Below are positions 6,641 through 42,400 of a stretch of DNA of 64,000 nucleotides, one piece after another; positions within the stretch are counted from its first letter, which is position 1, and the number at the start of each line of letters is the position of its first letter. The notes under the pieces were generated by a model. That model had not been told where the DNA came from. It saw only the letters and a program-made list of their open reading frames with translations, and ran no database searches. Position numbers and translations under genes: made by a program. The stretch is from Streptococcus mitis (GTDB lineage: Bacteria > Bacillota > Bacilli > Lactobacillales > Streptococcaceae). The stretch is from positions 868,001-932,000 of the forward strand of contig NZ_CABEHV010000004.1 in the NCBI RefSeq assembly GCF_901542415.1. The letters are read 5' to 3'.

Positions 6641-6771
6641 CTGGAAATCATCTCCAGTATGTGTCGTGATTTTTGAGAAATCCTAAATTTCCATATAAAT
6701 ACATGCAGATACACGAAAGGGCTAAACATTTTTGTATGCTCAGCCCTTGACAATGATTTTTTCTTATGCTA

Positions 6772-6979: not shown

Positions 6980-8302
6980 TTATTTCATCTTAAATATCTT
7001 TTCTATATTTTTATGTAAACGGGGAAGTTTGTAGTCTTTAGAGTCATTTTTAGGTCGAACACTATCCGCACTGATATGATCCAATGATGTATACTTATCA
7101 TAGTCCCTCTTCCATTCTCCAAAAAATAAATCTCTTAATTTTCCTTCACGTTCTAACAATATCATATTCGCTACGGCTATCCCACCTTCACTTGTCCAAT
7201 ACATCCCTCTATGTTTCATTCTATACGTTATTTTTCTATGCTGGCTCTCCATAATCCCAATACCTGACTTTGGAAGTCCTCTCATCTCCGCTGGTTTCGT
7301 ATACTGAAAATTTCTAATTAATCTACTCGAATAATATTCAAATTTTTCTTGTCCTTCTTCACTACTAACAAAAGATTCTATAGTATCTAGTGAACGACTT
7401 AATAATTTCTTATTATGCTCTCTAATAGCTTGAAATAAGTCTTCTCTCAACTCTCTCGGATAGGACTTTGTAAATTCTTTGATTTCTTTGTTCAAGTGAT
7501 ATTCGTCCCAAAAATGCTCATGCCTCTTAACATTAAATGATTTAGCAATTTCAGTAAATACATGTGGAGTATAGCCCTTGCCACAGTCAGAATTAGTAAC
7601 TAGTACAGTCTCATTTGTAATTTCATATTCATTTTCCAATAAATCTAACAATTCTCTACGAGCTAAGCGATTATCCAATCGGATAAGCTCTTTTTTATTT
7701 TCTAGCTCAAAACGATTTGGGCCAATCTGTTTAGAACCTGTATGAACTACAAAATGTGATAAATCCATATTCTTTTTTTCAGAACCATCTTCAGTTGTTT
7801 TCACATATACACCATCTCCCTCTATGTAGATGATATCTGCTTTAATTTTTTCAATCTTCTTCTCTTCTTTAAAAAATCGATAATCATCCTTTTCTTCTAG
7901 TAATTGATTGGCTAATTTGACAACCTTATTGACTGTATCTTTAGTGACAGTTACATTATAAACCATCTCAATTGTCTCTCCTACCTGACGATAGGGTAGT
8001 TTTGTAGCTAGAACCGCAGCTTGATACAATAGTTCCTGTGAATGACGTACATTCTTTTCTAAGCCTAACATTTCATCAACTGGTATTCTACATTCACCAT
8101 TCTTATACCAACGTTTTCTAGAAAAGGTCACTTCTCCAAATGTAAAAGCTACGGTACGTTCAGCTTGATTTTTACAACGATATCCTTTTGATCTCATACT
8201 AGAACTTATCGACTCATCATACTGTGCAATATGCTGTAAAAAATTTTGTTTTGTCTTTTCTTGTTCCTGACTACTAAATCTTAATTCATCAAATTGTTTC
8301 AT
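6980..8302 (-). CDS. ISLre2-family (UPF0236) transposase
   Basis: A 440-residue protein of the UPF0236/ISLre2 transposase family, recognisable from its N-terminal KGYRCKNQAERTVAFTFG segment, the acidic IKADIIYIEGDGVYVK strand and VTNSDCGKGYTP. It appears full length and uninterrupted. It sits at the left edge of the inserted element, next to the chromosomal small RNA locus. The ends of the insertion sequence could not be fixed: I found no convincing terminal inverted repeat pair between 6860-6980 and 8343-8500. The translational start lies inside a hairpin (see 8300-8343), which may keep transposase expression low. Confidence 0.85.
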   Translation of the reverse strand: MKQFDELRFSSQEQEKTKQNFLQHIAQYDESISSSMRSKGYRCKNQAERTVAFTFGEVTFSRKRWYKNGECRIPVDEMLGLEKNVRHSQELLYQAAVLATKLPYRQVGETIEMVYNVTVTKDTVNKVVKLANQLLEEKDDYRFFKEEKKIEKIKADIIYIEGDGVYVKTTEDGSEKKNMDLSHFVVHTGSKQIGPNRFELENKKELIRLDNRLARRELLDLLENEYEITNETVLVTNSDCGKGYTPHVFTEIAKSFNVKRHEHFWDEYHLNKEIKEFTKSYPRELREDLFQAIREHNKKLLSRSLDTIESFVSSEEGQEKFEYYSSRLIRNFQYTKPAEMRGLPKSGIGIMESQHRKITYRMKHRGMYWTSEGGIAVANMILLEREGKLRDLFFGEWKRDYDKYTSLDHISADSVRPKNDSKDYKLPRLHKNIEKIFKMK

Positions 8303-8600: not shown

Positions 8601-8613
8601 ATTACACCTTTTC

Positions 8614-9679: not shown

Positions 9680-9690
9680 AATCTCCTTCT

Positions 9691-10535: not shown

Positions 10536-10566
10536 TCTATTTCTCCTTCTCTTTTTCTATACTTCT

Positions 10567-10620: not shown

Positions 10621-10622
10621 TT

Positions 10623-12299
10623 TTACAAAAAAGATTCTCTTTCCTTTCGCTGTTCCACATTTTTCTCAATGTCTTGATGTAACTTATAATCTTTTGTAAT
10701 TGTTTCTACTCGTTGATATAAAGCTTGGCGCTCAAAAGTCACCTCCTTAACAAGTTTATCGATTTCAGATTTTCGAGTGCTAGGATCTACTCTCAGATCT
10801 TTCAGAATGGAAATAGCTAACTTCGATTCCTGAGGATCACTTGATTCCAATGCAAGAAATGCAGACTGAATTTTATTAAGCTCACCCAAGCGTTGATCTA
10901 ATTTATCAAGCAAGTTATCTACTTCTTCTAGTTCTTCTTCAAAACGATTTAACAATTCATCAAATTGCTGTCCTTCTGTCACTCCATGAGCAGATAGATA
11001 ATTGTATTCACGAACAAGCTGATCCAAACTGGAGATTTTCGGATTTTTTCGGACAATCATTTCTCCATTATCATATGACAACTGGGAAGCAACTGTTTCT
11101 CCCTTCATGTACCGATTCTTATCAGCGTGTTCAGGATTAACAAAATAGTAGAAATCATTTTTTCTGATAAAAATTTCATAAGATCCATCTTCTGCTTTTT
11201 CAATCTGATGAGCAGGAATCAGAATAGTTCCCTTATTTCTAATCCCAAATTCCATTTCAAGATAGATCCCATTCTTTGTTTCTTCCATCACCTGCCATTC
11301 TTCAACTGTGATTCTCATTTCAAAATCATCTTCTCGTTCCGCCACCATTTTTTCATATTCAGATTTAATTTCATCGACAGAGAAGGTCACCTCGTTAGCA
11401 ACCACTTTCTCAGAAATTTTCTCTAAAGAATAATTTCCTTTTTTGGACAGTGTACGATCCCTCACATTTCTTGTTTGATCCCGATCAGTCAGACGATATT
11501 TTATTTCCTTCCCTGAAGTATCAACTTCAAGATTTAAAGCTCGTGCCTTAATCTTAAAATCCTCTAAAGAGGTTGAATGTTTCAAAAGAAAATCTAAGCG
11601 TGATTTAATTTCATAGCGAAAAGAATTTTTTTTGCGATAGGCATGATAGGTTTTTCGATTAGTCCATAATCTCTCCTTGAGAATTTTAGCTCCAGCCAAA
11701 TCAGAATACTTGTTTGAAATATTAAATAAGCTTCTAGCAGTATTTTTCTGCCAACGAAACTTTTTTAATGTAACAGAATTAGTGGAATTGAAAATGATGT
11801 GATTGTGAATGTGCCCCTTATCCATGTGAGTCGCTATGACAAATTCATGTTGTCCACCAGTTAATTCTAAAATTGTTTTTCGACCAATCTCATGAATTTC
11901 TTGTGGAGTCAAATCATCTTCAGGAGAAAATGATTGGATGATGTGGTGAGCCAAAACCCGATTCGGATTGTGAATGTCAGATCGTTCTTTTGTCCCTGCT
12001 CGCTGAGCAGCATTCTTTTTTGTCAAAAGAAATTCTTCTGTCGCTGTGCTAGCGTCTGTAATTCCATAAGTAGATACCAGTTGCTTGACTACTCGGCCAT
12101 CTTTAACCACTGCTGGAAATTCAAACTGTTCATCTTGTTCTAAAAAACTCGTTTTAGATGGATTCTCGATATAGCGTAAAGCATTATTTAAACTTTTCGT
12201 ATCAGTCAGCTCGACCGTCTTAGCTTCATCCTCAATATATTTTGTAGATCGTCCTAAAGAAGCTACACCCTTTATTTGAAGAACCTTTGTTACAACCAT
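10623..12299 (-). CDS. MOBP-type relaxase (conjugative nickase)
   Basis: A 558-residue relaxase that would nick oriT and lead single-stranded DNA into the recipient. The metal-binding motif HIHNH is at residues 163-167 after HEFVIATHMDKG, and LRYIENPSKT (Tyr43) resembles motif I with the catalytic tyrosine. The C-terminal third is coiled coil (around residues 440-555). The gene overlaps MobC by 10 bases. The set resembles PcfG of pCF10 and the Tn5252 relaxase group (recognition from memory). It appears intact. Confidence 0.9.
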   Translation of the reverse strand: MVVTKVLQIKGVASLGRSTKYIEDEAKTVELTDTKSLNNALRYIENPSKTSFLEQDEQFEFPAVVKDGRVVKQLVSTYGITDASTATEEFLLTKKNAAQRAGTKERSDIHNPNRVLAHHIIQSFSPEDDLTPQEIHEIGRKTILELTGGQHEFVIATHMDKGHIHNHIIFNSTNSVTLKKFRWQKNTARSLFNISNKYSDLAGAKILKERLWTNRKTYHAYRKKNSFRYEIKSRLDFLLKHSTSLEDFKIKARALNLEVDTSGKEIKYRLTDRDQTRNVRDRTLSKKGNYSLEKISEKVVANEVTFSVDEIKSEYEKMVAEREDDFEMRITVEEWQVMEETKNGIYLEMEFGIRNKGTILIPAHQIEKAEDGSYEIFIRKNDFYYFVNPEHADKNRYMKGETVASQLSYDNGEMIVRKNPKISSLDQLVREYNYLSAHGVTEGQQFDELLNRFEEELEEVDNLLDKLDQRLGELNKIQSAFLALESSDPQESKLAISILKDLRVDPSTRKSEIDKLVKEVTFERQALYQRVETITKDYKLHQDIEKNVEQRKERESFL

Positions 12300-19012: not shown

Positions 19013-20848
19013 CTAACTTACTTTAAGAGGCACTTCCTCAACTTCCTTAATCCCAATATGAATGACATTTTCTTCCCCAACCTGGTCTTTCCACTCATCA
19101 ATATCGCTCAGATAGCGCTTGTATCGATACCAGTTGTCATCATTCGGTCCATTACTTAAGAGATGGGCTCTTGGATGCGTGTCCAGGTTAAATTTTTGAT
19201 CCCGAAAAACATTTTGTTTGGATAGAAAGAGTAGGGCTTCTGTTGTTCCAATCGTGGCCACCTCATGCGGTGTTAACAATTCCCGACCAATTTTAGAGTT
19301 CTGCTTAGAACTGCTGGCATTTCTTCCTCTGCTCTCACTATAATTCTGATCATTCAAAGTTTGCTTCCCTGATCGCTCAGATAGGTACTTAAGCGTGTCT
19401 AAGTCATTGGAACCTAAATAAAGAATAGCACCACAGTTATTGATAATCGTCTTTGTATTTTCTTTACCATACAGCACTTCAATCTGACTTTGAGATTGTA
19501 CCATCATCTTGATAGAAATCTCTCGAGAACGAATCACTGAGATAATTGGTGGTAAATTAGGAATCTTCCCAATCTGACCAAACTCATCCGCCCACACCTG
19601 TAGATGCAATAAATCTTCCTTGGTCTTTGTTGGATGATCGCCTAAAATAACTGCATCTGCAGTTTTTATTAGCACATCAAAAATGGTACTAAAAAGAAGG
19701 GCAGATAAGAACTGATAAGCTGGATCCACTTCTGGAATATGAATAAAAACTGCTGTCTTCTCAATATTCCATTTTTCAATCTCGAGTGTATCCTTTTCAA
19801 TAATCTTTCTTAGTTGCTCATGATCAAATACTGAGAAGGTTGTTGCAAAGATAGCATAAACAGAAGCCCGTGTTTGGCCATCAAAGTTTTTATTGAATAG
19901 ATCCCACTGCCTACTAGCATAATTTCCTGGGCTCCTTCTTTCCAGGTCTTCAAACATCAATTCAACAGGACTCTCCGCTTCTGGATGATTCCGTCTCAAT
20001 TCTCGAATCATATCTGTAACCTGCCCTAAATTAGGCAGATAGTGATCGAGCTTACCATCAAAATAAAGATAGCCAATAAGAGAACGCATCAAGAGTTTAT
20101 TTGCTGCAGGCCAAAAAGGATCACTTTCATGACCATTTCTGTTGAGAGACTCTGTAATTGCCTCTGCCACTCGGTCTATATCCATTTCATTATGAATATA
20201 TCTAAAAACGTTGAAGCCATCTGAATTCAAGAAAGTAATCAGATCAAAAATCTTCATCTTATAACCCTTTTCTACAAGTGATTTCCCTGTTTCATGAATG
20301 AGAATTCCTTTGGTATCTGTAGTCACAAAACTAGAGTTTCCTTGTAAAATATTCGGCTTTACAGCACTACGTGTCTTTGAATCCCCTGTACCACCATACA
20401 CCAGAATATTTTTATTAATCTGATTTTCAAAGCTCAATCGGTTATTAAATAGTCCCATCTGACTATTTTGAGTAAAGATCATATTCTTTTCAGGTTCTTC
20501 GTCTCGGAATCTCATCAACTCTTCTCTTGTCGCAAAACGAGCTGATCCATGTTCTTCTCCATAGCGGTAAGTCCCCGTATCAGATACTCTCAAATACAGT
20601 AGAAAAGCAATCAAAAATCCGCCCATACCAATTAATAAAGAAGCTGGAGTAAATTGAAAATCGATCCAAGACTTATCGTTCAGATGATCGCTCATCCAGT
20701 TAAGCTTTCCAAATCCAAATACATCCGTTACTGAATCAGTATCTGGTGCCAACAGCCATAGTTTAAAGAACCAATGAAAGAGGTAGAATAGACCAATTCC
20801 TAACAACAAATACGGTCTAAGTCTCCGTTTCTTCTTTTCTGTAATCAC
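19013..20848 (-). CDS. VirD4-like type IV coupling protein
   Basis: A 611-residue membrane ATPase that links the relaxosome to the secretion channel. Two N-terminal spans (around residues 13-33 and 69-87) precede the motor domain. The P-loop reads GGTGDSKT at 152-159, with Ser where the motif normally has Gly before Lys. Walker B (LQVWADEFGQIG, 419-424 for WADEFG) is normal. It overlaps the DUF3801 gene by ATGA. It matches PcfC of pCF10 in size and position. Confidence 0.92.
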   Translation of the reverse strand: MITEKKKRRLRPYLLLGIGLFYLFHWFFKLWLLAPDTDSVTDVFGFGKLNWMSDHLNDKSWIDFQFTPASLLIGMGGFLIAFLLYLRVSDTGTYRYGEEHGSARFATREELMRFRDEEPEKNMIFTQNSQMGLFNNRLSFENQINKNILVYGGTGDSKTRSAVKPNILQGNSSFVTTDTKGILIHETGKSLVEKGYKMKIFDLITFLNSDGFNVFRYIHNEMDIDRVAEAITESLNRNGHESDPFWPAANKLLMRSLIGYLYFDGKLDHYLPNLGQVTDMIRELRRNHPEAESPVELMFEDLERRSPGNYASRQWDLFNKNFDGQTRASVYAIFATTFSVFDHEQLRKIIEKDTLEIEKWNIEKTAVFIHIPEVDPAYQFLSALLFSTIFDVLIKTADAVILGDHPTKTKEDLLHLQVWADEFGQIGKIPNLPPIISVIRSREISIKMMVQSQSQIEVLYGKENTKTIINNCGAILYLGSNDLDTLKYLSERSGKQTLNDQNYSESRGRNASSSKQNSKIGRELLTPHEVATIGTTEALLFLSKQNVFRDQKFNLDTHPRAHLLSNGPNDDNWYRYKRYLSDIDEWKDQVGEENVIHIGIKEVEEVPLKVS

Positions 20849-26065: not shown

Positions 26066-28429
26066 CTAAGCGTCTGTTGCGACTAAGTTATACAACTTAG
26101 TATTCTTTGGTATTGGATTTTCAAATGGCACCACAACTGGCCCAGCTACGATTAAGCCAGTACCTTTAGCTTTTGGCCGTGCCAAGTAGCGAATCTGTTT
26201 ATCAGTCAGATTGACAATCTCTTTTAGGATAGCCAAATCTTGGGGTTTTTGTTTGAGTAAAATCATAAACTCACTATTTGAGAGCAATTTCCGACCTTCT
26301 TCAACAGCAGCTAGCGTTTCTACGTTCTGGGTGATTCCTGTTGGAATCGCACCATATTTCCGAATCCGTGAATACAACGTAGTAAAGAAGTCTGCTTGAG
26401 CCTTATTTTTAAATAGAATCTGCATCTCATCAAAGTAAACCCATGTAGTACATTTCCCTTGATTCTCTACAATTTGATTCCAGATATAATCCTGAATAAC
26501 CATTAAAGCAAACGGCTTCAACTTATGAGACAACTTCTTCAGATTAAAGATAACAAAGCGATGATTGAGATCCACGTTGGTATTGTGAGCAAAAATATCT
26601 TGAGAACCAGTTGTATAGGTTTCCACTGCCAAAGCTAAATCTTGAGCTTCTGGCTCTGGTTGTTCCTTCAATACCTGGTGCCACTCTTTTAATGTTGGGG
26701 TAAAATTCTCCGTCAAATAGCGTTCATAAGTCACACCTGTCACTCGGTCAATAATCCCAATCTGTGCATCTGTCACCTCTGACAGAATCGATTCAAACAA
26801 TCCCATCAACAAGTTTGCTTTATCCCCTATTGGATCGTCATCCTCATCATCCAAACGATCCAGATCTGGTAGATCCAAAAGATTGATATGTGTTTTAGAA
26901 CCAATCGAAATATCCACCATCTGAGCACCGAAAGCACGGCCAATATCAGAATATTCATCTTCGGGATCCACGATGATAACTCTGTCTTCTGGATATTTCA
27001 GTAAAGTTGGAATAACTTCTCCACCCTTTATTGTTGTAGATTTACCAGATCCTGAAGAACCTAACACAACACCTGAACCCGTGTTCAAATCACGTTTTCG
27101 ATCTAGTGTAATGATATTGTTTGATAACTGATTTTGACCATAGTAGCGAGCGAGTGAGCTTTCAGACTTCAAGTCCACATTGGTAAAAGGGACTTGCGTA
27201 GCAATATTAGCTGTTGTCATCTTTCTCATGAAATTCTTCTTCACATTCAAGAAGCACTCACCGATAGGTAGAATCGTATTCAAAGCCTCCTCTTGATAAT
27301 AATAAAGATCTTCAAACTCTACCCCTAATTTACGGCCAGCACGCTTAATCTTTTGTTCATTACGTTGTAGTTCCTCTTGGCTCTCTGCCTTAAAATACAC
27401 TGCAATCAAACCAGAGAAGATTTTCTGATCATACTCAGTAATCTCGTCTCGCCACTTCTTGGTAGCTTCTGAGATTTCTTGGTCACGACCAGCCACAACC
27501 GCATCATCAAAGATACCAGATTGAGCTGCCTTGCGTTTAGAACGAAGTTTCCCAATTTCAGCATCTGTTTCTGCATCGTCAATCTTCTCTAAGATTTCAA
27601 CATTCTCATAAGGTTCCGCATGGATAGTAATAGCTAGTTCAAATCCTAGTGTTGTTAAATCACGAATGAGACGATCGGACATCCAGTTAGGGTAGCGGTG
27701 TGCATAGAGTACCTTGACCCAACTATCATCTATAATCATGCGTTTTTCTTGAAATTCAATCCTTTTTGGCGCAATAAATGATTTAGTGGATAAACCTGTC
27801 AAAGCAATTTCTTTGTAATCGAAATTGACATACGGGTTACCTCGTAGTAGCTCAGAAAAGACTTTTAGACGATCCAAACCATTCATATCCCTAAAATTAA
27901 TATCAGATTCCTGGAACTGAGTCCCAAGGGAAACTCCAATATCTTGTAGTAACAACTGCGCCTGTTTTCGATCATCAGCGTTCGTTGAAATGGTCACATA
28001 CTTATGTACCTCGAAGTTGTTAGCGTGTGTTGTAAATCGCTCCTTGATCATCTCATTTAGCTCCTCACGATAGTCATCGTAGCCATCGTTTGTTTCTTCA
28101 AACAAAATATTCTGCAAGGAGTTATCCGATACTCTACGGTTAATTACTAAGAGTTGATAGTTACTGCCCTCATCCAGTGAATTGAGAGCATCCATCGTTG
28201 TATCGATGATGCTCTCTTTTTCATCTTGTTGAGCAGTTGAGTAAGAAGCATCTCCCAACATAAAGCTACGAGAATACTTCTCACGAGCAATGTGCATTAA
28301 TCCATCTTCGTGCAGTAGTGTATAATTGATTGTATTTTGCGTCGTAGGTTTCATCTGACGACGCAAGCGCTCAATTCTTTTCTTTTCTGCGTTTTCTAGT
28401 TTTTCTCTTTTGCTTTTGAATAAACTCAT
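26066..28429 (-). CDS. VirB4-like conjugation ATPase (PrgJ-type)
   Basis: A 787-residue ATPase that powers the secretion channel. Walker A GSSGSGKST is at about 457-465, VIIVDPEDEYSDIGRAFG follows, and Walker B is WVYFDEMQ. The N-terminal half fits the TraE/VirB4 family. The start overlaps the VirB3-like gene by 59 bases and has only a weak ribosome site (GAAAG); Met26 is a less likely start. The gene is intact. Confidence 0.93.
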   Translation of the reverse strand: MSLFKSKREKLENAEKKRIERLRRQMKPTTQNTINYTLLHEDGLMHIAREKYSRSFMLGDASYSTAQQDEKESIIDTTMDALNSLDEGSNYQLLVINRRVSDNSLQNILFEETNDGYDDYREELNEMIKERFTTHANNFEVHKYVTISTNADDRKQAQLLLQDIGVSLGTQFQESDINFRDMNGLDRLKVFSELLRGNPYVNFDYKEIALTGLSTKSFIAPKRIEFQEKRMIIDDSWVKVLYAHRYPNWMSDRLIRDLTTLGFELAITIHAEPYENVEILEKIDDAETDAEIGKLRSKRKAAQSGIFDDAVVAGRDQEISEATKKWRDEITEYDQKIFSGLIAVYFKAESQEELQRNEQKIKRAGRKLGVEFEDLYYYQEEALNTILPIGECFLNVKKNFMRKMTTANIATQVPFTNVDLKSESSLARYYGQNQLSNNIITLDRKRDLNTGSGVVLGSSGSGKSTTIKGGEVIPTLLKYPEDRVIIVDPEDEYSDIGRAFGAQMVDISIGSKTHINLLDLPDLDRLDDEDDDPIGDKANLLMGLFESILSEVTDAQIGIIDRVTGVTYERYLTENFTPTLKEWHQVLKEQPEPEAQDLALAVETYTTGSQDIFAHNTNVDLNHRFVIFNLKKLSHKLKPFALMVIQDYIWNQIVENQGKCTTWVYFDEMQILFKNKAQADFFTTLYSRIRKYGAIPTGITQNVETLAAVEEGRKLLSNSEFMILLKQKPQDLAILKEIVNLTDKQIRYLARPKAKGTGLIVAGPVVVPFENPIPKNTKLYNLVATDA

Positions 28430-30377: not shown

Positions 30378-32945
30378 CTACTTTTTATTTAATTTCCTAT
30401 AGATTATTACAGAGATTCCTAATGCTATTCCAATAATTCCTGTCAAAGTCAAGAAATTGGATAAACTAGTTCCCGTATTAGGTAATACTTTTTCAACTTG
30501 GGTGCCTACTTCGATAATTTCATTTACAGGATCTACTTTTTCAAGAGTCGGTTTGTTTTCTTTTACCTCTCCAGTATCTGGGTCAAGATAATAAGTTGTC
30601 GTAATTGTTTCTCTACCTTTAACACCAGCTTGAATAATTTTTTCTTCACCTTTCTTTAAATCTTTATTTTCTCGTTTTTCAGTTTTAAATTCCGTTTCCA
30701 TAATTTCAACTTTGGGCTTAGTCCCTACTGAAATAACTTCGTCTACAGATTCAGTTTTTTCAACCTTTGGTTCATCCGCGGTCACTTCTCCTGTTTCAGA
30801 ATTAAAACTATAGGTAATCGTGGTTGTTTCATGACCTTTGCTACCTTTTGTAACAACTGTCTTTTTACCTGCTTCTGATTCCTTATCCTCAACATATTTT
30901 GTTTTGTAATCCAAATCTTTAGTTGTGACAATAGGCTTTGTTCCCACAGAAATCACTTCGTCTACAGATTCAGTTTTTTCAACCTTTGGTTCATTTGCGG
31001 TCACTTCTCCTGTTTCAGAATTAAAACTATGAGTAACAGTGCTTGTTTCATGACCTTTGCTACCTTTTGTAACAACTGTCTTTTTACCTGCTTCTGACTC
31101 TTTATCCTCAACATATGTTGTTTTGTAATCTAGTTCCTTAGTCGCAACAGCTGATTTGCTTCCTCTAGCCACTACTTTATCAACAGCTTCTTTAAGGACT
31201 TCCTCTTTTATAGATGGTTCATCTTTCGTTCGAACTCCTTTTTGAGTTACATAAGTTTTGGTAGTTCTTTTAACACCTACAACACCTTCAGTTAGAATTT
31301 TTTCTTGTCCAAACTCTAACTCAGGATCCTCTGTATAAACAGTTTTAAAAGCTATATCAGACTCTGCAACATCCACATCTTGCCCTTTTGTACCTTTTGC
31401 AATTACTTTATCCACGGCTTTTTTAAGGATTTTTTCTGTGGTGACTGGTTCCCCTACACGTTTACCTGATTGAGTAACATAAGTCTTTGTTATTTCTTTT
31501 TGACCTATAGCACCTTCAGTTACAACTTTGGTCTGTCCAATTTCTAACTCAGGATCCTCTGTATAAGTTGTGTTAAAAGGAATATCTTCTGTCTTCACCT
31601 CAACGTCTGATCCTTTAGTTCCTCTAAGAACAATGCGATCAACTTTAGGTTTTGTAATAGTAGTTGAAATAACCTTACCATCTTTTAGAGAAACCAATTG
31701 TGAACCCTCACTACCAGCTTGCTTTTCTTTCTCTTGACCAGCAGCCAGCGATGAATCCTCTTCATATTTGGTTTCAAAAGCAATTTTTTCAGGTCTGAGA
31801 GTATTGATTTTTTCATCTACTTTTTTACCATCTACTGTTACAGAACTGCGAATACTACGTTCTACAGACGGTGTACCAGTAAAAGTATAATTAACAGTAT
31901 AGGAACCATTATCCAAATCACCTGACCAAGAAACGGTATTATTGGTGATAGTTAGAGGAGTTTTTTGACCATTAGGAGAAACTAATTCTGCTGAAGTTAA
32001 TGTCAAATCTGCTTCCGGACTAATAGAGACGGTTCCTTTTTGTTTAATAGTTTTATTAACAACTACTAGCGCTGTTGACTCAAATAATTTAGCAATATCT
32101 TCTTGACGATTAGGTGTGTCTAACTTAGTGAAAACCTTAATATTCGGATGACCGGCTTTTTTAAGCTGACTTACAGATAACGCATCATTCCCAACAACAC
32201 TATCTACAACCGTCATAAAAGTTTTAGCATTCGACTTTGCCCAATCTGCAAAACTAGTATCAATATTCTCATTAGTACCTGAAATACTAGTCCAATCATC
32301 TGTGAATTGAAGAACTGAAACTTGTTTATTTTTATTAGTTTGTGCTTTGTACACATCCTCAAAACCTGTTCCTATTGGAAAATTCTTTGAAACAGAATAT
32401 TTCTTTGATTCTAGCAACGGTGAAACATATGAACTAATTAAAGAGCTTGACAATGACATACTATGTACTTCTTCGTTCGAATTTAACTCTTTTAATAAAT
32501 CGATAGCTTCTTTTTTTGTCAATAGACGTGTTATATCAGAACCTTCTCTATCACCAATTTTATATGAATCTTCAGTATTTGTACCATAAAAAGCTACCAT
32601 CACATGATCTTCATCAGTCAATTTATTCTCAATAACATAAATCATGTCATTAATTTGTTGTTTACGACCACCAGCAACACCATTAGCTCTTTCAAATTCA
32701 GAATCAGACAAAGACCCTGATAAATCAATAATTTGAATCAAGTCCATCGGATCATGATAAGTTACTTGTGATTTACTAGTTGTTGTTGTACCCGAAAACT
32801 TTAAACTGTTACTATAGCCATCCTCTTTCTCCTGTGCATAAACCTTTGTGATTTCTACAAACGGTGTTACAACTTCAACTAAATTCGGAAATCCTAGAAC
32901 TGCCAGTCCTAAGATTACACTAAAACGCTTTTTCCATTTTTTCAT
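30378..32945 (-). CDS. LPNTG-anchored surface protein with VWA domain and six G5/E-like repeats
   Basis: An 855-residue cell-wall protein. Signal peptide 1-37 (ends VYA), von Willebrand A domain from ~65 to 290 with the metal site DLSGS (74-78), a beta domain (300-390), then six G5/E-type repeats of 65-73 residues, and a sorting signal LPNTG (821-825) with membrane anchor and basic tail. Repeats four and five are almost identical. It lies 11 bases after the antigen I/II gene and probably helps mating-pair contact, as PrgC does in pCF10 (position only). Confidence 0.88.
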   Translation of the reverse strand: MKKWKKRFSVILGLAVLGFPNLVEVVTPFVEITKVYAQEKEDGYSNSLKFSGTTTTSKSQVTYHDPMDLIQIIDLSGSLSDSEFERANGVAGGRKQQINDMIYVIENKLTDEDHVMVAFYGTNTEDSYKIGDREGSDITRLLTKKEAIDLLKELNSNEEVHSMSLSSSLISSYVSPLLESKKYSVSKNFPIGTGFEDVYKAQTNKNKQVSVLQFTDDWTSISGTNENIDTSFADWAKSNAKTFMTVVDSVVGNDALSVSQLKKAGHPNIKVFTKLDTPNRQEDIAKLFESTALVVVNKTIKQKGTVSISPEADLTLTSAELVSPNGQKTPLTITNNTVSWSGDLDNGSYTVNYTFTGTPSVERSIRSSVTVDGKKVDEKINTLRPEKIAFETKYEEDSSLAAGQEKEKQAGSEGSQLVSLKDGKVISTTITKPKVDRIVLRGTKGSDVEVKTEDIPFNTTYTEDPELEIGQTKVVTEGAIGQKEITKTYVTQSGKRVGEPVTTEKILKKAVDKVIAKGTKGQDVDVAESDIAFKTVYTEDPELEFGQEKILTEGVVGVKRTTKTYVTQKGVRTKDEPSIKEEVLKEAVDKVVARGSKSAVATKELDYKTTYVEDKESEAGKKTVVTKGSKGHETSTVTHSFNSETGEVTANEPKVEKTESVDEVISVGTKPIVTTKDLDYKTKYVEDKESEAGKKTVVTKGSKGHETTTITYSFNSETGEVTADEPKVEKTESVDEVISVGTKPKVEIMETEFKTEKRENKDLKKGEEKIIQAGVKGRETITTTYYLDPDTGEVKENKPTLEKVDPVNEIIEVGTQVEKVLPNTGTSLSNFLTLTGIIGIALGISVIIYRKLNKK
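30742..31179 (-). repeat. two tandem 219-bp repeats in the VWA/G5 gene
   Basis: Copies begin at 30742 and 30961 with the same TCTACAGATTCAG and differ at few positions. Each encodes a 73-residue G5/E unit. Confidence 0.85.
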
Positions 32946-32956: not shown

Positions 32957-35900
32957 CTATTCTTTTTTCTTTCGCATAGATAAAGCTAAAGCGATTGTTC
33001 CCATAACCATTCCAAGAAGAGCTAAATTGTTGGAACTACTCATACCAGTATTAGGTAATTCCACTTTTGAAACTTCTTCTTTGGGTTCCTCGTGTTTCGG
33101 TTCTTCTGGTTTTGGTTCTTCCTTTTTCGGTTCTTCTGGTTTTACCTCTTCTGGAGTATGAGTCACAACCGTATTGGAAACAACTTCCACACCATTAACT
33201 GCATGAGAGTAAGTATTTTCTACTGTTCCTGATTGAATGCGTGTCATTTGTAGGTAAGCTTCTGCTTGAAATTCTGATGTTTCTAAAATAGACTTCAAGA
33301 AAGCATCATCAAAGCTAATATCTACTTTTCCTTTTTCTTTGTCTACTACCTGACTAGTATACTTAGTTAATTCATCTCCAGCTTTAAATTTTTGACCGTC
33401 ACTTGTTTCAAAGTCTACAGTCGCAAACACTTGATATACACCTTGATACTCATCATGTGTTTCATCATAATCATCGCTAAACTTATACTCAAACAACTGC
33501 TCTGAGCGATCTCTTGGTATCAAGGAACCAACTAATTTATAATTAAATGTTTGATTCAGTTTGACCTCTTTTCCATCCAAGCTTTCTTTGCTTAGATGGT
33601 CGATTACAACATCTTTCTTTGGTTCAATCTTTGGAACATTATTGACTACTGTTTCAGTTACATAGGCCATACCAAAATCAATTTGATAAGCTGTATTTTC
33701 GTACTTACCACCTGTTTGACCCAATTCCTTCTTGACAGTCATTGGGTTGGTAATCGTCAGAACTTCTCCAGTTTGCACGTAGGTCTTGTAGAACTCCTCT
33801 GGATTCTCTGCCTCGAATACTTGAATCGCTCCTTTCGGAGTGAAATTGCTAGACTTCAGGGCTTCTTGGACACCTGATGGTGCCTTATCTAGACTCTCAT
33901 AAAGAGCCATTTTCAAACCTTTAACTACTTGACCTTTAGAATCCGTTACTTGAACACCATCTTGATTGATTGTAACAGCTTCTTCTGGGTAATCATCAAC
34001 GATATAGAACCCTTTACCAATACGGTCTTTATCTGCTTCAATGCCCTTGTATTGGCTATAATCTGCCGTTACCTTGTAGTAGTTGACAGAGCCTGCCAAG
34101 ACCTGTTTCCCATCGATGTTAACACCTGCTTTATTCAGATTCTTCTTGGTAGGTTTCGCAGTAGGAACATTATTTACAACTGTATCTGTGATATAAGCTG
34201 AACCAAAATCAAGCTGATAAGCTGTATTTTCGTACTTACCACCTGTTTGACCCAATTCCTTCTTAACAGTCATTGGGTTGGTAATCGTCAGAACTTCTCC
34301 AGCTTGCACGTAGGTCTTGTAGAACTCCTCTGGATTCTCTGCCTCGAATACTTGAATCGCTCCTTTCGGAGTGAAATTGCTAGACTTCAGGGCTTCTTGG
34401 ACACCTGATGGTGCCTTATCTAGACTCTCATAAAGAGCCATTTTCAAACCTTTAACTACTTGCCCTTTAGAATCTGTCACTTGAACACCGTCTTGATTGA
34501 TTGTAACAGCTTCTTCTGGGTAATCATCAACGATATAGAATCCTTTACCAATACGGTCTTTATCTGCTTCAATGCCCTTGTATTGGCTATAATCTGCCGT
34601 TACCTTGTAGTAGTTGACAGAACCTGCCAAGACCTGTTTCCCATCGATGTTAACACCTGCTTTATTCAGATTCTTCTTGGTAGGTTTAACAGTAGGAACA
34701 TTATTTACAACTGTATCTGTTTGATAACCGTTACCAAAATCAACTTGATAAGCTGTATTTTCAAATGATTTCCCTGTATTTCGCAGTTCTTCCTTAGTTA
34801 CCATTGGATCAATAATTGTAACCGATTTCCCTGCTTTGATATACTGGTTAAAATAGGCTTCTGGATCATCCACTAAAAATACTTGGAAAGCACCCTTGGG
34901 CTTAATTTCAGAACTAGCAAGAAAAGCTTTTACCTTATCATTATCAACGGCATCTATAGAATCATACTGATACACTGAGATACCAGCAACTTCTTGTCCT
35001 TCACTGTCAATATAACGAATATCCGATTGATTAATCGTAACAGCCTCTTCTGGATAATCATCAATCGCACCAAATCCTTTTAGAATAGTAGATGAATCTG
35101 CCTTCATCCCCTTATATTGATCATAATCCAAGGTTATATGATAGTAATTCGTTGAACCAGCTAGAACTGTTTTACCATCAATAATAACACCATCCTTATT
35201 ATGATTGTGTTTGAGAGGTGTGATCAAGTTGTTATTCGGATTGTCTGGATCGTTCGGTTTACCTGGGGTTGAAACCTGAACAATATTTGAATAACTTTCG
35301 TACTTATTATTAATTTTTAATTGGAAATTATTCTTGTAGGTTGCACCATCATTTATAACTTTTCCTACTAAAACTGGAGCTGGTACTTGTACTTCCTTAC
35401 TTAAATCTTGATTAAGCTTAGATTTCAAACTTTCTAAGCCTTTCATTCGAACAACATGACTCGACTCGTCATAAGTTAATTCAAAATCTGAGCTAGCGTT
35501 CTTTGAAGCTTCTACATCTAGTACAAAACCTGAAGGCAAGGCATCTACAATCTCAAAGTCTGTAATAGCTTCACGATTAGCTGGAAGAGGCTTAGTTGTT
35601 AATTCCCACTGTACTGTTGAAAGCTTAGGCACATAGCTTTTATCAATAGATTCACCTGTAGAATTCTTTACAAACTTTTCAAGATCAGGTGTAGCCTGTA
35701 AACGTGCATATCTAACTCTAACTGTTGGAGCTGACAACAAAGATGGAATTTCTTTCTCCTTTGGCTCCTCTGGTTTTGGTGGTAGTGCTTCCTCTTCTTT
35801 CCCTTTTGGAGAACTTGGTGGAGTAGTTTCCTTCTCATAGGTTGGCTCAAATGGTTTTGTTAAGAAAGGTGCCTTTTTCAATTCTGCACCAGATCCCAAA

Positions 35901-37429
35901 ATTGTAAACACGACATTTTGAGCATTTCCACTCGCATTCTCTGCATCCCATTCAGCACGAGTTCTTCCCTCTGTCGAACCAGGAGATGAGGTGTGAAGGT
36001 ACGTTAGACTAGAGCCATATCCTACTGAAGCAAAAGAACCCTTAGGGATATCCGAGGTATCATTAACACCATATTCTACTCCCTTCATAACACGACCATC
36101 AAAATTTAAACCAGAGCCACTTGGATTAATAACCATTCCACGACCAGATGAACCATAACTCAAATTTGAGCCTTGCCCCCAATCGACATCTGTAATCACT
36201 GTACCAATTAATAAAGAAGCTGGTGTTGTCGTACCTTCAATATAAAAATCAAAAACCATTTCCAAACGGGTATGATTATTATAGACAAAGTAGAAACTTC
36301 CTCCATCTCCTCCCTTAAGATAAATATCCGGATCTGTCACAGGAACACCATTTTGAACTTCTCCTTGGTAGTCTCCTAAATCAGAAACCATGACTTTTGC
36401 CATAATCTTTCTACCATCTGTCAACGTTCCAATATTATGAATATAAAATGTATCTCCAACTTTTGGAGCTTTAATTACATCGTAGACTCCTGTACGATCT
36501 TTGCCAACTTGAGTTCCTTCACTCCCTGTTACATAAGTATCTGCATGATAGCCTAAAAATCCGTCCATGCTCTCGACTTGGAGATCATCATCTGGTACAA
36601 CTGTAAAGTCAACATAATACTCCATCCCTTGACCAAATGTATTAAATTCTCCATAGACTTTAAAACCTGTATCAGATCCAAATAAAGGCTTGCTTGTTTG
36701 AATTGCCTCTCGCTCAGCTTTAATAGTTGCTAGCTTCTTTGTATAGTCTGTCAAAGAGTTTTCATAAGCTACTTTCTTAGCTGCATTTCGTTTTCGGATT
36801 TCTGCGTTCTCTTGATTAATACGATCTGTTTCTGCCTGATTCTCTCGTTGATTTTTTTCATTCTCTGCACGAATACTAGTATTCTTCTGATTAATTCGAT
36901 TAACTTCAGCCTTATAAGAATCTAAATCCTTTTGATATTTTTCTTTCTTTGAAGCATTTTCTTCTTGGATTTTCTTTCGTTCTGCTTGATTCTGTTTCTT
37001 TTCTTCTATATATTTTTCAGTAACTTTCTCAACACTATCTGCTTGTGTGCGATAATCACTTTCGACTTCCTTTTGCTTTTTGTCCAACTCAGAGGCTGTA
37101 CTTGCGATTCCTTTATCTACTACAGAATCAAATTCCACCTTCAATCCAGCTTCTTGTGCCTTTTTAACAGTTTCATCTAAACTAGAATGAGAAATAGAAA
37201 CTTCTAACGTTCCTGTTTTTTCTTCACTCTTTCCTTGATTTTCAGTAGAAATACTGCTTGGACTCGTCTGGGCATAAGGCGCATTTGTGGCTGGATTTTC
37301 AGTTCGTTCATCTGCCATAACTGGACTTATCATACTTAAAGCTGCTAAACCTAGTATCACTCCACAAGTTCCATAAATTTTTGATTTCCGAATAGAGCCA
37401 TATGTTTTTGTTTCTCTTACTTTGTGCAT
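32957..37429 (-). CDS. antigen I/II-family adhesin (aggregation-substance type)
   Basis: A 1490-residue wall-anchored protein. An YSIRK-like signal peptide ends near residue 39 (PVMA). Residues ~85-245 are a charged coiled coil, the stalk A-region. A GbpC/V-type lectin-like domain follows (~250-540), a short Pro-rich stretch, then C-terminal isopeptide-forming domains: one diverged copy and two almost identical 177-residue copies. The sorting signal LPNTG is at 1458-1462. In conjugative plasmids such adhesins (PrgB) clump donors with recipients. No RGD motif is present. Confidence 0.92.
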   Translation of the reverse strand: MHKVRETKTYGSIRKSKIYGTCGVILGLAALSMISPVMADERTENPATNAPYAQTSPSSISTENQGKSEEKTGTLEVSISHSSLDETVKKAQEAGLKVEFDSVVDKGIASTASELDKKQKEVESDYRTQADSVEKVTEKYIEEKKQNQAERKKIQEENASKKEKYQKDLDSYKAEVNRINQKNTSIRAENEKNQRENQAETDRINQENAEIRKRNAAKKVAYENSLTDYTKKLATIKAEREAIQTSKPLFGSDTGFKVYGEFNTFGQGMEYYVDFTVVPDDDLQVESMDGFLGYHADTYVTGSEGTQVGKDRTGVYDVIKAPKVGDTFYIHNIGTLTDGRKIMAKVMVSDLGDYQGEVQNGVPVTDPDIYLKGGDGGSFYFVYNNHTRLEMVFDFYIEGTTTPASLLIGTVITDVDWGQGSNLSYGSSGRGMVINPSGSGLNFDGRVMKGVEYGVNDTSDIPKGSFASVGYGSSLTYLHTSSPGSTEGRTRAEWDAENASGNAQNVVFTILGSGAELKKAPFLTKPFEPTYEKETTPPSSPKGKEEEALPPKPEEPKEKEIPSLLSAPTVRVRYARLQATPDLEKFVKNSTGESIDKSYVPKLSTVQWELTTKPLPANREAITDFEIVDALPSGFVLDVEASKNASSDFELTYDESSHVVRMKGLESLKSKLNQDLSKEVQVPAPVLVGKVINDGATYKNNFQLKINNKYESYSNIVQVSTPGKPNDPDNPNNNLITPLKHNHNKDGVIIDGKTVLAGSTNYYHITLDYDQYKGMKADSSTILKGFGAIDDYPEEAVTINQSDIRYIDSEGQEVAGISVYQYDSIDAVDNDKVKAFLASSEIKPKGAFQVFLVDDPEAYFNQYIKAGKSVTIIDPMVTKEELRNTGKSFENTAYQVDFGNGYQTDTVVNNVPTVKPTKKNLNKAGVNIDGKQVLAGSVNYYKVTADYSQYKGIEADKDRIGKGFYIVDDYPEEAVTINQDGVQVTDSKGQVVKGLKMALYESLDKAPSGVQEALKSSNFTPKGAIQVFEAENPEEFYKTYVQAGEVLTITNPMTVKKELGQTGGKYENTAYQLDFGSAYITDTVVNNVPTAKPTKKNLNKAGVNIDGKQVLAGSVNYYKVTADYSQYKGIEADKDRIGKGFYIVDDYPEEAVTINQDGVQVTDSKGQVVKGLKMALYESLDKAPSGVQEALKSSNFTPKGAIQVFEAENPEEFYKTYVQTGEVLTITNPMTVKKELGQTGGKYENTAYQIDFGMAYVTETVVNNVPKIEPKKDVVIDHLSKESLDGKEVKLNQTFNYKLVGSLIPRDRSEQLFEYKFSDDYDETHDEYQGVYQVFATVDFETSDGQKFKAGDELTKYTSQVVDKEKGKVDISFDDAFLKSILETSEFQAEAYLQMTRIQSGTVENTYSHAVNGVEVVSNTVVTHTPEEVKPEEPKKEEPKPEEPKHEEPKEEVSKVELPNTGMSSSNNLALLGMVMGTIALALSMRKKKE
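33672..34733 (-). repeat. two tandem 531-bp repeats in the antigen I/II gene
   Basis: The same sequence restarts exactly 531 bases later (for example AAGCTGTATTTTCG at 33688 and 34219). Differences are scattered single bases. A third, clearly older copy lies at about 34740-35270. The near identity points to recent duplication or conversion. Confidence 0.9.
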
Positions 37430-37591: not shown

Positions 37592-39256
37592 TTAAGAAAT
37601 CCACTTACCAGAATAATCTAAACGATAACCACCAATCGTCTCATTTTGTGCCATCTTACCATCTGCTTTCAAATAATACCAAGCACTTCCGTCTTTGAAC
37701 CATTGATCTCTCAGATAACTTCCATCTGATTTGAGATAGTACCAAGCTTTATAACTAGAATCGTATAACCACTCACTTTGTGCCATTTTCCCATCTGACT
37801 TAAGGTAGTAGCTTCCTTGCCAGCTATTTTGTGCATAGCTTCCATCTGATTTGAGATAGTACCACGCTTCATAGCTGGAATCGTATAACCACTCACTTTG
37901 TGCCATTTTCCCATCTGACTTAAGGTAGTAGCTTCCTTGCCAACTATTTTGTGCATAGCTTCCATCTGATTTGAGGTAGTACCAAGCTTTATAGTTTGTA
38001 TCATAAACCCATTCATTACGTGCCATCACACCATTTGATTTGAGATAATAGTTCCCTTTCCAACCACTGACAAGAGCTTTTCCTGCATGATCAAAATAAT
38101 ACCAATGACTTCCCTCTTGTTTCCATTTGTCGCGCCAATCAGATGTGTTTTCAATCGGTTTAATAGGTTCTGCTTTCTTAGAATTATTTTCTTCTACAGT
38201 ACTTTTACCTGTCTGGTTCTCCAACTTACTTTTTAAATCTTGATAAATTCTCTCTTTATTTTTGTAATCATTTTCTAATTTTTTTACAACCTGATAACGA
38301 TTTGAAGATCTTGGATCCGTTACTGAAGCTGTACTAAAATTAGATTTCGTTGCTCGATTAATATTTTCCTGAGAAATAGTGATGAAATGAGCAGAGCTTA
38401 CTGAGGAAAGACTAGAAAATGATAAGCCAAAATAATCTTTACTTGATGGATTCCCCCAGTTCAATCCTGCAATTGCTTGAGCATGTCCCCATTCAGTATC
38501 GTTTAACATAAATTCAACCATACCAGTATAAATAGCTTCTTTTAGCTGAGATTTGGTAGCTTCTCTTAACGCTACAGGTCGAAAGAATAAATTCTCATAC
38601 AGTTGACCTCCTCTTTTTTCAGATTCAGCATCTGAGGTAGGCAAGCCATAGATTTTTGCAACTCGGTTGATACCTCCGGCATTGTGACCTGATACACCTA
38701 ATGTGCTCAATTTAGATAATCCCCAATCATCTTTTACATACTCCTTTGCCACCTTATCTGCGAAGTCAAGTGCCGAAATTGAAACAGTTACACTACCAGT
38801 CCCAACTTGTGAGCGTACTTGATTTATTAAATCTTGAGCAAAAAATGATAGCTCTGTTCTAACCTCTAGCGATAAATTATTAACAACCAGACGTTCTCCC
38901 TCATCAGCAACATCTTTATGGAAACTATTTTGATTCTTTAATCTCAAACTTTCTGACTGCAAGATAGACTTCGCTCTATCACGTTCAGTCTGACTAATAT
39001 TAAAATCAGAAAAAGCCGTCTTCAAAGCCTTTATATACTTATCGCTCAGTGTAATCGTATTGCTAGGTGAAGATGATAAAGCATTGTCATAGATATTTTT
39101 AGCTTGTTCATATTCTCTCTTAGCTTTAATCAATTCACTTTTTAAACTTTCTACTTGACTGCTCGTTGTACTATTCGCATACACAGGTTGACTATTTACT
39201 AACCCAAGCAACGTTACGCTGGCAGTTGTTGCCAAGATAGTTGTTCTCAATTTCAT
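37592..39256 (-). CDS. surface-exclusion (SEC10/PgrA-type) protein with choline-binding modules
   Basis: A 554-residue exported protein. Signal peptide 1-27 (ends VYA). A coiled coil (30-75) leads into a CAP-like domain of the SEC10/PgrA kind (~120-300; GHNAGGINRVAKIYGL, EWGHAQAIAGL). A second coiled coil (~330-365) leads to about nine choline-binding modules (385-554; WYYLKSDGSYAQN and SWQGSYYLKSDGKMA types). Relatives on enterococcal plasmids block mating between donors and are LPXTG-anchored; here the anchor is binding to choline on teichoic acid. It has its own promoter and terminator. Confidence 0.85.
   Translation of the reverse strand: MKLRTTILATTASVTLLGLVNSQPVYANSTTSSQVESLKSELIKAKREYEQAKNIYDNALSSSPSNTITLSDKYIKALKTAFSDFNISQTERDRAKSILQSESLRLKNQNSFHKDVADEGERLVVNNLSLEVRTELSFFAQDLINQVRSQVGTGSVTVSISALDFADKVAKEYVKDDWGLSKLSTLGVSGHNAGGINRVAKIYGLPTSDAESEKRGGQLYENLFFRPVALREATKSQLKEAIYTGMVEFMLNDTEWGHAQAIAGLNWGNPSSKDYFGLSFSSLSSVSSAHFITISQENINRATKSNFSTASVTDPRSSNRYQVVKKLENDYKNKERIYQDLKSKLENQTGKSTVEENNSKKAEPIKPIENTSDWRDKWKQEGSHWYYFDHAGKALVSGWKGNYYLKSNGVMARNEWVYDTNYKAWYYLKSDGSYAQNSWQGSYYLKSDGKMAQSEWLYDSSYEAWYYLKSDGSYAQNSWQGSYYLKSDGKMAQSEWLYDSSYKAWYYLKSDGSYLRDQWFKDGSAWYYLKADGKMAQNETIGGYRLDYSGKWIS
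37721..38040 (-). repeat. 120-bp tandem repeats encoding choline-binding modules
   Basis: TCCATCTGATTTGAG recurs at 37721, 37841 and 37961, a period of 120 bases equal to two modules. Copies are nearly identical. Confidence 0.85.
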
Positions 39257-39311: not shown

Positions 39312-39340
39312 ATTTTACCATTTTTAGAGTTTTTTCTCAA
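39312..39340 (-). promoter_or_regulatory. promoter of the exclusion-protein gene
   Basis: TTGAGA (39340-39335), 17 bases, TAAAAT (39317-39312); the start codon follows 56 bases on, after AAAAGGAG. Confidence 0.6.
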
Positions 39341-39446: not shown

Positions 39447-39761
39447 TTAATGCTTCGTTGGACGATGATATCCTTTACCAGTCAGCAGTAAACGATTGGT
39501 ATTTCCTTGTTTAATGCGTCTAGCCACTAGAACATCACCTCGTTTGATGGTGCGAATCTCTTTATAAATTTTTGAATATTCTACAATCATCCAAACTGTC
39601 TCTAGTTTACCTGCTAGATATCCTTTTTTAGATACCAAACCATATCTGCTGGTTAATTTGATTTCATCTCCATTATCAAGTCTTGCGGTTGCATTCCCTT
39701 GATTTCCTAAGCATCTAAGGTCAGCTAAAGTGACCTCTGTAACTAATTTTGATTGATTCAT
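39447..39761 (-). CDS. small protein of the replication region, unknown function
   Basis: A 104-residue basic protein predicted mostly beta (VTLADLRCLGNQGNATARLD...). No family recognised. AAGGAGG lies at the right distance from the ATG. The upstream 300 bases are non-coding and highly structured, so its expression may depend on that RNA. A hairpin AAACAGATAGA/TCTATCTGTTT follows the stop without a strong T run. Confidence 0.7.
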   Translation of the reverse strand: MNQSKLVTEVTLADLRCLGNQGNATARLDNGDEIKLTSRYGLVSKKGYLAGKLETVWMIVEYSKIYKEIRTIKRGDVLVARRIKQGNTNRLLLTGKGYHRPTKH

Positions 39762-40037: not shown

Positions 40038-40073
40038 AAAAAAGCTAGATTTAATCTCATGTCATCTATAGCT
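40038..40073 (-). terminator. terminator of repA
   Basis: AGCTATAGAT (40073-40064) pairs with ATCTAGCT (40050-40043) with a 2-base bulge, followed by six T on the minus strand. It begins at the repA stop codon. Confidence 0.7.
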
Positions 40074-41218
40074 TAGTTACTCAGATACCTATACTCTGCT
40101 TCTCTATGAGCTTGCATCTTGGCCTCGCTCTTACGTTCGCCAATCAAATTTTCAATAGATTGAATCAAGTAAGCAAAAGGACTATCACATTCAGGAATCC
40201 GTTCGATACAGTGAAGAACCTCACTACTTGTTATCCATCCTGTCTGAATGTATTGGCCAACAATCATCTTTTGGCGGTGAGTCATATTATAATGCTGGTA
40301 CCACGGTAAATGATCTCGGTAGCTATCTGCAATTTCCTGCAAGAGAGAATAGACTTGAGGTTTGATAAATTTCTTCCCACTTGTTTTTTGAGAAGGAGTG
40401 TCACAAGTTCCAGCAGTCTGATCCAATTCCTTAGAATTGGAAGCAGGCTTTCTAGAACTATGTCTAGTACTATTATTCTCAGTATGACTCTTCTCAGTCT
40501 TAATAGGGTTAAAATTTTTTACCTCCGGAGGTAAAGATTTTTGACTTCCAAAATTCGTTGATTTAACAGCTTTTTTTGGAGGTAAAGATTTTTGACTTCC
40601 ATAATTTATTGATTTGATAGGCTTTTCTAAAACAGAGTTTTCATCTTTCAAAATAGAAGATTCTTCTTCACTGCCTGGACGTTCAATTTCAAATAAGACA
40701 CAACCTTTGTAATCTAAAGTTTTTACATGGTGGTAGACTACAGTTCCTTTGTCACGTCCTTTTTCTACGATTTTAGCATCATAGTGTTCATATTCTTGTA
40801 ATTCAGCATTCACATTTTGAAGATACAAACGATTCGGACGATTCTTCCCTTGTTTCACTTCACGAAGCAATCCAAGCTCTTTCAATTCTTTCTTGATTTT
40901 CAATACAGTTGGCTTACTGCGATCTAAAATTTCCATTAAGTCCTCAACCGTATAGACAAGAAATACTGAACCATTCTCATCAACATAAGTCAGTTCACCG
41001 TTTCTGTAAGAATGAATACTCAACATACATCGATCATAGAGTACTCCATAAGCAATCTTGCCATCATTTGATAATTTCTTGGCATAGAGACTCGTCATCT
41101 TGATTTTCCCAGTAGGTTTCCCTTCAGCAGAAAATTTCTTCTTAACATTTACCATGAAAATTTGTGGGATTTGATAGAAGGTCTGTGTTGCTACTTGATT
41201 TACTGTAATATCAGCCAT
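40073..41218 (-). CDS. repA: RepA_N-like replication initiator
   Basis: A 381-residue protein. The N-terminal 120 residues (FYQIPQIFMVNVKKKF, GKIKMTSLYAKKLSNDGKIAYGVLYDR, VYTVEDLMEILDRSKPTVLKIKKEL) match the RepA_N winged-helix domain of theta-replicating Gram-positive plasmids. The middle (200-275) is low complexity with a 17-residue repeat, and a helical domain ends the protein. In this family the origin often lies inside the gene. Its presence argues for a plasmid origin of the element. It follows four small genes with an overlapping or very close start. Confidence 0.88.
   Translation of the reverse strand: MADITVNQVATQTFYQIPQIFMVNVKKKFSAEGKPTGKIKMTSLYAKKLSNDGKIAYGVLYDRCMLSIHSYRNGELTYVDENGSVFLVYTVEDLMEILDRSKPTVLKIKKELKELGLLREVKQGKNRPNRLYLQNVNAELQEYEHYDAKIVEKGRDKGTVVYHHVKTLDYKGCVLFEIERPGSEEESSILKDENSVLEKPIKSINYGSQKSLPPKKAVKSTNFGSQKSLPPEVKNFNPIKTEKSHTENNSTRHSSRKPASNSKELDQTAGTCDTPSQKTSGKKFIKPQVYSLLQEIADSYRDHLPWYQHYNMTHRQKMIVGQYIQTGWITSSEVLHCIERIPECDSPFAYLIQSIENLIGERKSEAKMQAHREAEYRYLSN
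40527..40615. repeat. two iteron-like direct repeats inside repA
   Basis: A 38-base unit beginning GGAGGTAAAGATTTTTGACT at 40527 recurs at 40578 (51-base spacing) with a few changes. TACCTCCGGAGGTA at 40520-40533 is a perfect palindrome at its edge. The location in the variable middle of repA is where RepA_N plasmids carry their origin. Confidence 0.65.
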
Positions 41219-42313: not shown

Positions 42314-42400
42314 ACATATATTTATATATTTCTTGAATTTCTCAAAACTCTAGACACTTACTCATCTCCATTGAATCAGACCAATTCCCTACATCTCCGA

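Follow-up and report, generated by a model that had tools for sequence, protein, structure and literature searches.

What a surface-exclusion domain does on a choline-binding anchor is the question raised by a gene of Streptococcus mitis located in the 64,000-nucleotide stretch analysed here (the window; positions 868,001 to 932,000 of contig NZ_CABEHV010000004.1, assembly GCF_901542415.1). Its product, designated SEC10-CBD, joins a SEC10/PgrA region containing a CAP domain to a choline-binding domain (CBD; Table 1). Domain, anchor and carrier element are each of known kinds. SEC10-CBD is probably a PrgA-type surface-exclusion and adhesin-control protein of an integrative and conjugative element (ICE) of the TnGBS family, held non-covalently on the phosphorylcholine of teichoic acids. 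Surface exclusion, which restricts how far conjugative elements spread, has in our judgement been little studied in streptococci; judging from sequence, SEC10-CBD is a probable gatekeeper of DNA transfer whose gene now resides on two kinds of mobile elements.

The N-terminal half of the protein matches TIGR04320 (Surf_Exclu_PgrA; residues 44-360) with 182.9 bits and an E-value of 1e-53 (curated cut-off, 70), and nine choline-binding modules in a row were counted by eye in the translation, both in agreement with an earlier interpretation made from the sequence alone (the sequence-only reading). The C-terminal part also exceeds the cut-offs of PF19085 (99.1 bits, E = 1.6e-28, five stretches; cut-off 27), PF01473 (64.1 bits, 8.5e-18, five stretches; cut-off 20.5) and PF19127 (37.4 bits, 2.5e-09, four stretches; cut-off 27). 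No LPXTG motif was found in the protein, which ends in a choline-binding repeat. In the predicted structure (mean pLDDT, a per-residue confidence score, 76; pTM, an overall fold score, 0.57), a CAP-like domain is flanked by helices 32-61 and 316-351 and followed by a segment of low confidence (351-374) and the repeats. Its PDB matches are PrgA and the choline-binding domain of CbpL (4cnl), with which the anchor part shares 63% identity. The model contains the PrgA-type CAP fold between flanking helices, which are predicted to be short (30 and 36 residues). CbpL, LytC and LytB of Streptococcus pneumoniae have the same repeats and fold as the anchor but other N-terminal domains. Compared with the LPXTG-anchored PrgA/SEC10 (Sea1) of Enterococcus faecalis pCF10, SEC10-CBD has a short stalk and choline-binding modules and is encoded on an ICE. 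PrgA is described as a cell-wall-anchored protein presenting a protease-like domain on a stalk of ~40 nm (PMC10588982). Choline-anchored forms are 514-706 amino acids (aa) long, whereas 36 LPXTG-anchored forms are 829-1072 aa long; a short stalk may be acceptable if teichoic acids keep SEC10-CBD close to the surface.

The carrier was taken to be a plasmid in the sequence-only reading, but it is an ICE of the TnGBS family, about 35.7 kb long, as indicated by an ISLre2 transposase, conjugation and replication genes, terminal repeats and an insertion site upstream of a promoter. The features of this family that are present include a MobP-type relaxase, a VirD4 coupling protein, a type IV secretion system (T4SS) and a plasmid-type replication gene; a CHAP/lysozyme protein and a ParA-type ATPase are encoded within the same array. 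The element is flanked on both sides by the 9-bp direct repeat TCATCTCCA, which was read from the displayed element ends (the repeat scoring itself gave a 7-bp repeat and 15 bases). Sixteen bases separate the element edge at 6657 from the -35 sequence TTGACG starting at 6640, which is part of a promoter (TTGACG-17-TATAAT) facing the 5927-6424/alaS genes. TnGBS and related elements are reported to generate direct repeats of 8-9 bp and to insert 15-17 bp upstream of the -35 box of sigmaA promoters (PMC3942029). In a tblastn search of 72,556 plasmid records, no single place spanned 80% of the query; 14 records matched with a coverage of at most 53% (10 from Ligilactobacillus, 3 from Streptococcus and 1 from Collinsella), and 13 of them are annotated as SEC10/PgrA. 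A phage origin was likewise rejected: 28 phage records matched, with only the repeat part involved in all 15 displayed matches, and the IMG/VR contigs yielded three pattern stretches and no relative. The surface-exclusion-like proteins of TnGBS1 and TnGBS2 belong to the same element family but have LPXTG anchors in place of the choline-binding domain.

On the minus strand, the gene order is RepA, TraE-like, SEC10-CBD, antigen I/II (LPXTG), G5 protein (LPXTG) and T4SS, and the SEC10-CBD, antigen I/II and G5 genes parallel prgA-prgB-prgC, which occur in this order on pCF10. The antigen I/II protein scores 1324 bits with NF033804 (below the cut-off of 1500), 1.1e-47 with the aggregation substance family NF033875 (below cut-off) and 30 bits with the wall-anchor family TIGR01167 (cut-off 15.9), and its C-terminal part is related to PrgB (8beg, E = 1.4e-55). 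The proteins PrgA, PrgB and PrgC of pCF10 are named in PMC10588982, where PrgA is stated to give surface exclusion; PrgA is also linked to PrgB cleavage (PMC7726212). Because both partners are homologous to PrgA and PrgB, SEC10-CBD may act on the co-encoded antigen I/II. Once secreted, it would be docked to the wall by its nine modules, the flanking helices would serve as a short stalk holding the CAP domain, and the adhesin made beside it would probably be cleaved or masked, as PrgB is by PrgA. On donors this would limit aggregation, and on element-carrying cells it would disable the adhesin of an incoming donor, resulting in exclusion. A choline-anchored PrgA should come off with free choline and no genetic change, so that exclusion could be tested directly.

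The pair of SEC10 and antigen I/II genes was found with more than one conjugation machinery. TnGBS-type elements carry 4 of the 10 choline-anchored SEC10 sequences classified (those of the window, S. mitis SK667, Streptococcus sp. k-402 and genome G139). At loci L044, L046, L052 and L054, the fusions lie upstream of genes for an FtsK-type coupling protein, a relaxase, TcpC, TcpE, VirB4 and CHAP (gene order from phmmer), which from their sequence matches constitute a Tn916-superfamily module. The names were derived from L085 and L054, where FtsK_SpoIIIE, Rep_trans, TpcC, TcpE, AAA_10 and CHAP exceed the Pfam cut-offs and MobT and TcpF fall below those of NCBIfam; the relaxases of L044 and L046 are related to that of L085 only distantly (50-81 bits). 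L050, which combines the pair, its adhesin shortened, with a phage-type integrase, shows no conjugation gene in its 16.8 kb and was assigned to the Tn916 type through its kin. Pairs without choline modules occur in both TnGBS-type (L055, L056, L057, L060 and L064) and Tn916-type elements (L059, L070 and L078), with no LPXTG detected by pattern in L064 and L078.

Over 17 pair loci, the fewest changes are one for the anchor and four for the machinery, in the SEC10 and antigen I/II trees alike (several sequences in these trees are long-branched). SEC10 distances correlate with antigen I/II distances over all pairs (r = 0.76) and between machineries (r = 0.74; 0 of 5000 permutations each), within the nine choline loci (r = 0.98; 14 of 5000) and within the eight others (r = 0.66; 23 of 5000), whereas the correlation with machinery difference is only 0.17 (226 of 5000). 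Since SEC10 distances track antigen I/II far more than machinery, the pair seems to travel as a unit. The data suggest that this exclusion-adhesin unit moves between conjugation machineries while its anchor follows the host cell wall. The same contrast in correlation, together with the tie of PrgA itself to PrgB cleavage (PMC7726212), would also suit an adhesin sheddase without an exclusion role, which trims antigen I/II to regulate aggregation, biofilm formation and host adhesion of the carriers and affects incoming DNA, if at all, incidentally. We regard this as rather unlikely, given that both partners lie inside the conjugation modules of two ICE families and that surface exclusion is what PrgA is stated to give (PMC10588982).

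The CAP domain contains a hypervariable patch. Among 22 close relatives (the window protein and P0001-P0021), the mean pairwise difference is 0.315 within residues 175-234 and 0.093 elsewhere in residues 29-374, a contrast reached by none of 2000 column shuffles. H191, E211, E213 and Y220-E221-N222 inside the patch and H258 just outside it are invariant in these 22 sequences, and, apart from E213, all remain so when 32 sequences are compared. Invariant His and Glu residues within variable surroundings would fit a diversified recognition by the CAP domain. By eye, about four patch types and mixtures of them can be told apart; patch types reappear on near-identical flanks and P0020 resembles a mixture of two, suggesting that patch types are exchanged by recombination. 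For a matching of patch and antigen I/II alleles the loci are too few: only four distinct TnGBS-type loci are available, three of which have one patch type. It is conceivable, if improbable, that exclusion is both shareable and coded, i.e. that shed SEC10-CBD rebinds to choline-coated neighbours and closes element-free kin, and that the patch sets which adhesin alleles are recognized, creating exclusion groups that move with the adhesin across unrelated machineries.

Several observations weigh against exclusion as the role of SEC10-CBD. In the HMMER alignment to PrgA, H191 and Y220-E221-N222 match, but E211 falls in a gap and H258 is opposite a Tyr (the His of PrgA lies two residues on); as far as this alignment goes, the two proteins do not have every conserved CAP residue in common, and for this reason exclusion was rated lower and a sheddase alone higher. 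At L043, no antigen I/II accompanies the fusion, either in the 16.8 kb of this locus or in a further 12.1 kb to one side. The co-inheritance of SEC10 and antigen I/II could result simply from their being adjacent. Finally, G139 has two copies of the element (L040 and L041) at different chromosomal sites that are identical over 15,884 bp; exclusion, if real, therefore did not stop the second copy, which internal transposition could have produced.

The fusion is recurrent and present in databases as Cbp14 or SEC10/PgrA. A search of ~5.8 billion proteins, in which scoring was confined to the 7,997 candidates with the most words in common and to proteins within a limited range of lengths, gave 63 homologues, of which 25 have choline-binding repeats, 37 have LPXTG and one has neither; given these candidate and length limits, 25 of 63 is not a prevalence. 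The sequence-only reading, which contrasted the choline-binding modules with the LPXTG anchors of known exclusion proteins, would have been refuted by a poor SEC10/PgrA score or by a common, known fusion: the N-terminal half does score as SEC10/PgrA, but the fusion is not unique. Four of the proteins are from S. pneumoniae by source name (P0005, P0006, P0018 and P0020); NCBI names one of them SEC10/PgrA and another, P0005, Cbp14, the latter being 94% identical to the SEC10 part of the window protein. Several homologue lengths step by 40 aa (514, 554 and 594), as would follow if repeats were gained and lost. Among 284 genomes of the genus, 135 gave a match. Fifty SEC10 sequences were classified after setting aside nine duplicate loci, L041 (same as L040), sequences aligning over <200 residues and L003 (no match); 10 were choline-anchored, 36 LPXTG-anchored and 4 neither, these four being left out of the count of anchor changes. 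Further fusions may exist among the weaker, unclassified matches. The 10 choline-anchored sequences group in a single clade (support 99/97), with one change of anchor on the 50-sequence tree, in which, as in the 17-locus trees, Treekit flagged long branches. It seems that a single swap of the anchor took place, in choline-coated hosts. S. mitis B6 has many choline-binding genes (22 are listed; PMC2828477), and a local recombination accident between such a gene and a SEC10 gene in the present strain might be imagined, but the occurrence of the fusion in 25 homologues and a supported clade refutes it and leaves it next to no likelihood.

Cbp14 of S. mitis B6 has 498 aa and 40-mer repeats (PMC2828477, Table 4), and cbp14 is listed among the choline-binding proteins of this strain and Streptococcus pseudopneumoniae (PMC2828477, PMC3686770). 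SEC10-CBD resembles it in being of similar size to this named choline-binding protein, a likeness drawn from name and description. CAP proteins have varied roles. The fusion might accordingly be cargo unrelated to conjugation, namely an accessory choline-binding surface protein that acts as an adhesin or in immune interactions. The listings of cbp14 would agree with this and, in the parts available, mention it merely as a choline-binding protein, drawing no link to exclusion, PrgA or an ICE (PMC2828477, PMC3686770). Nevertheless, such a role is improbable: the order RepA, TraE-like, SEC10-CBD, antigen I/II, G5 and VirB6 is common to five TnGBS-type fusion copies (window, L006, L007, L040 and L041), and an LPXTG-anchored SEC10 is at or next to the same place in L055, L056, L057 and L060.

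Genes for choline decoration are present in the host. In the genome containing the window, a LicA-type choline kinase match lies within 5 kb of two of the three LicD matches, one of which reads through a TAA. LicA matches at E <= 1e-20 were obtained in 114 of the 284 genomes, 100 of them at 1e-100 or better. All 10 fusion genomes are among these 100 (one TAG being read through in each of G169, G206 and G122). The six genomes that carry non-choline pairs with either machinery are all outside the 100: the matches of G133 and G256 are only distant (32-33% identity), and G044, G050, G052 and G028 do not belong to the 114. With both machineries, choline-anchored SEC10 is thus found in LicA genomes and LPXTG or anchorless SEC10 in genomes without close LicA, an association rather than an independent test, the genomes being related. 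A strict rule that a choline host has a choline anchor was rejected. LPXTG-anchored SEC10 proteins occur in LicA genomes, including two in the window's own genome and those beside antigen I/II at L068 (G122), L071 (G233) and L074 (G225); the same arrangement is seen at L075 in G134, which has no LicA match. No conjugation gene was seen in about 12.8 kb at L074 and L075. Within this sample, no choline anchor was seen outside LicA genomes, yet LicA does not force it. Anchoring in choline-decorated hosts does not require the swap, as the neighbouring antigen I/II also keeps LPXTG; an exchange of anchors associated with the host, as put forward in the sequence-only reading, is supported.

At L068 and L071, antigen I/II and LPXTG-anchored SEC10, in reversed order, are followed by a 1046-aa, weakly VirD4-like frame and, further downstream, by a TnGBS-type transposase match.

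Among the papers listed by searches of a literature set without most subscription papers, no description was found of the fusion as an exclusion protein, nor of a choline-anchored exclusion role, a single origin, two machineries or co-inheritance with antigen I/II. In one study, 19 new S. pseudopneumoniae choline-binding proteins are named with predicted domains (PMC6593409), and SEC10-CBD may be among them.

Table 1. Features of the window (positions counted from its first nucleotide).
Feature	Position	Strand	Remarks
SEC10/PgrA-CAP domain with nine choline-binding modules (Cbp14-like)	37592..39256	-	554 aa, ATG start
SEC10/PgrA region, residues 44-367 (approx.)	38156..39127	-	CAP between helices 32-61 and 316-351, then start of linker 351-374
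Hypervariable CAP patch, residues 175-234	38555..38734	-	around H191, E211, E213, Y220-E221-N222; 22 close relatives
Choline-binding domain, residues 374-554	37592..38137	-	nearest solved relative CbpL
Promoter-like site TTGAGA-17-TAAAAT with TG, upstream of SEC10-CBD gene	39312..39340	-	consensus match only
LPXTG antigen I/II adhesin, next downstream of SEC10-CBD (PrgB-like position)	32957..37429	-	1490 aa
LPXTG protein with six G5 domains (PrgC-like position)	30378..32945	-	PF07501 2.4e-70; TIGR01167 20.2 bits
Small TraE-like protein adjoining SEC10 in TnGBS-type elements	39447..39761	-	NF041439, far below cut-off
RepA_N replication initiator of element	40073..41218	-	PF06970 1.5e-16
VirB4 ATPase, CD1110 family	26066..28429	-	NF045971 953.6 bits, cut-off 325
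VirD4 coupling protein, CD1115 family	19013..20848	-	NF045973 486.6 bits, cut-off 250
MobA/VirD2-type relaxase	10623..12299	-	PF03432 2.1e-29; NF040665 (SAG1250 family) 292.5 bits, below cut-off 575
ISLre2-family DDE transposase (integration module)	6980..8302	-	NF033529 216 bits, cut-off 200; UPF0236
Left direct repeat TCATCTCCA	6648..6656	.	element begins at 6657 with inverted repeat GTATGTGTCGTGATTTTTGAGAAAT
Right direct repeat TCATCTCCA	42362..42370	.	element ends at 42361 with inverted repeat, 21/25 identical

The consensus scan that gave the promoter-like site found 10 such sites in the region (8.8 expected). The small TraE-like protein is possibly a regulator and stays beside SEC10 in TnGBS-type elements, either before or after it. 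NF041439 is matched by seven of its nine relatives at E <= 0.01. A kinship with PrgU was not detected: a nine-relative profile matched no relevant PDB chain and, in NCBIfam, only NF041439, weakly. The antigen I/II proteins of the window, L006 (11819-16819) and L007 (11737-15690) are 1490, 1667 and 1318 aa long, respectively, at >92% identity, a variation that looks like a changed number of repeated C2-type domains. The N-terminal ~300 residues of the G5 protein have no Pfam match and resemble, by eye, a von Willebrand A-type domain. RepA of the window (40073-41218) and that of the SK667 element (L006:7782-8960) are only 36% identical, whereas SEC10, antigen I/II and G5 are 94-97% identical between the two elements, suggesting that the replication gene was exchanged. 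AT-rich inverted repeats at 8555-10625 surround the ParA-like gene and adjoin a Fic-domain gene (8614-9390). At 47842-49019, two overlapping open reading frames in different frames look, by eye, like one broken IS30-type transposase.
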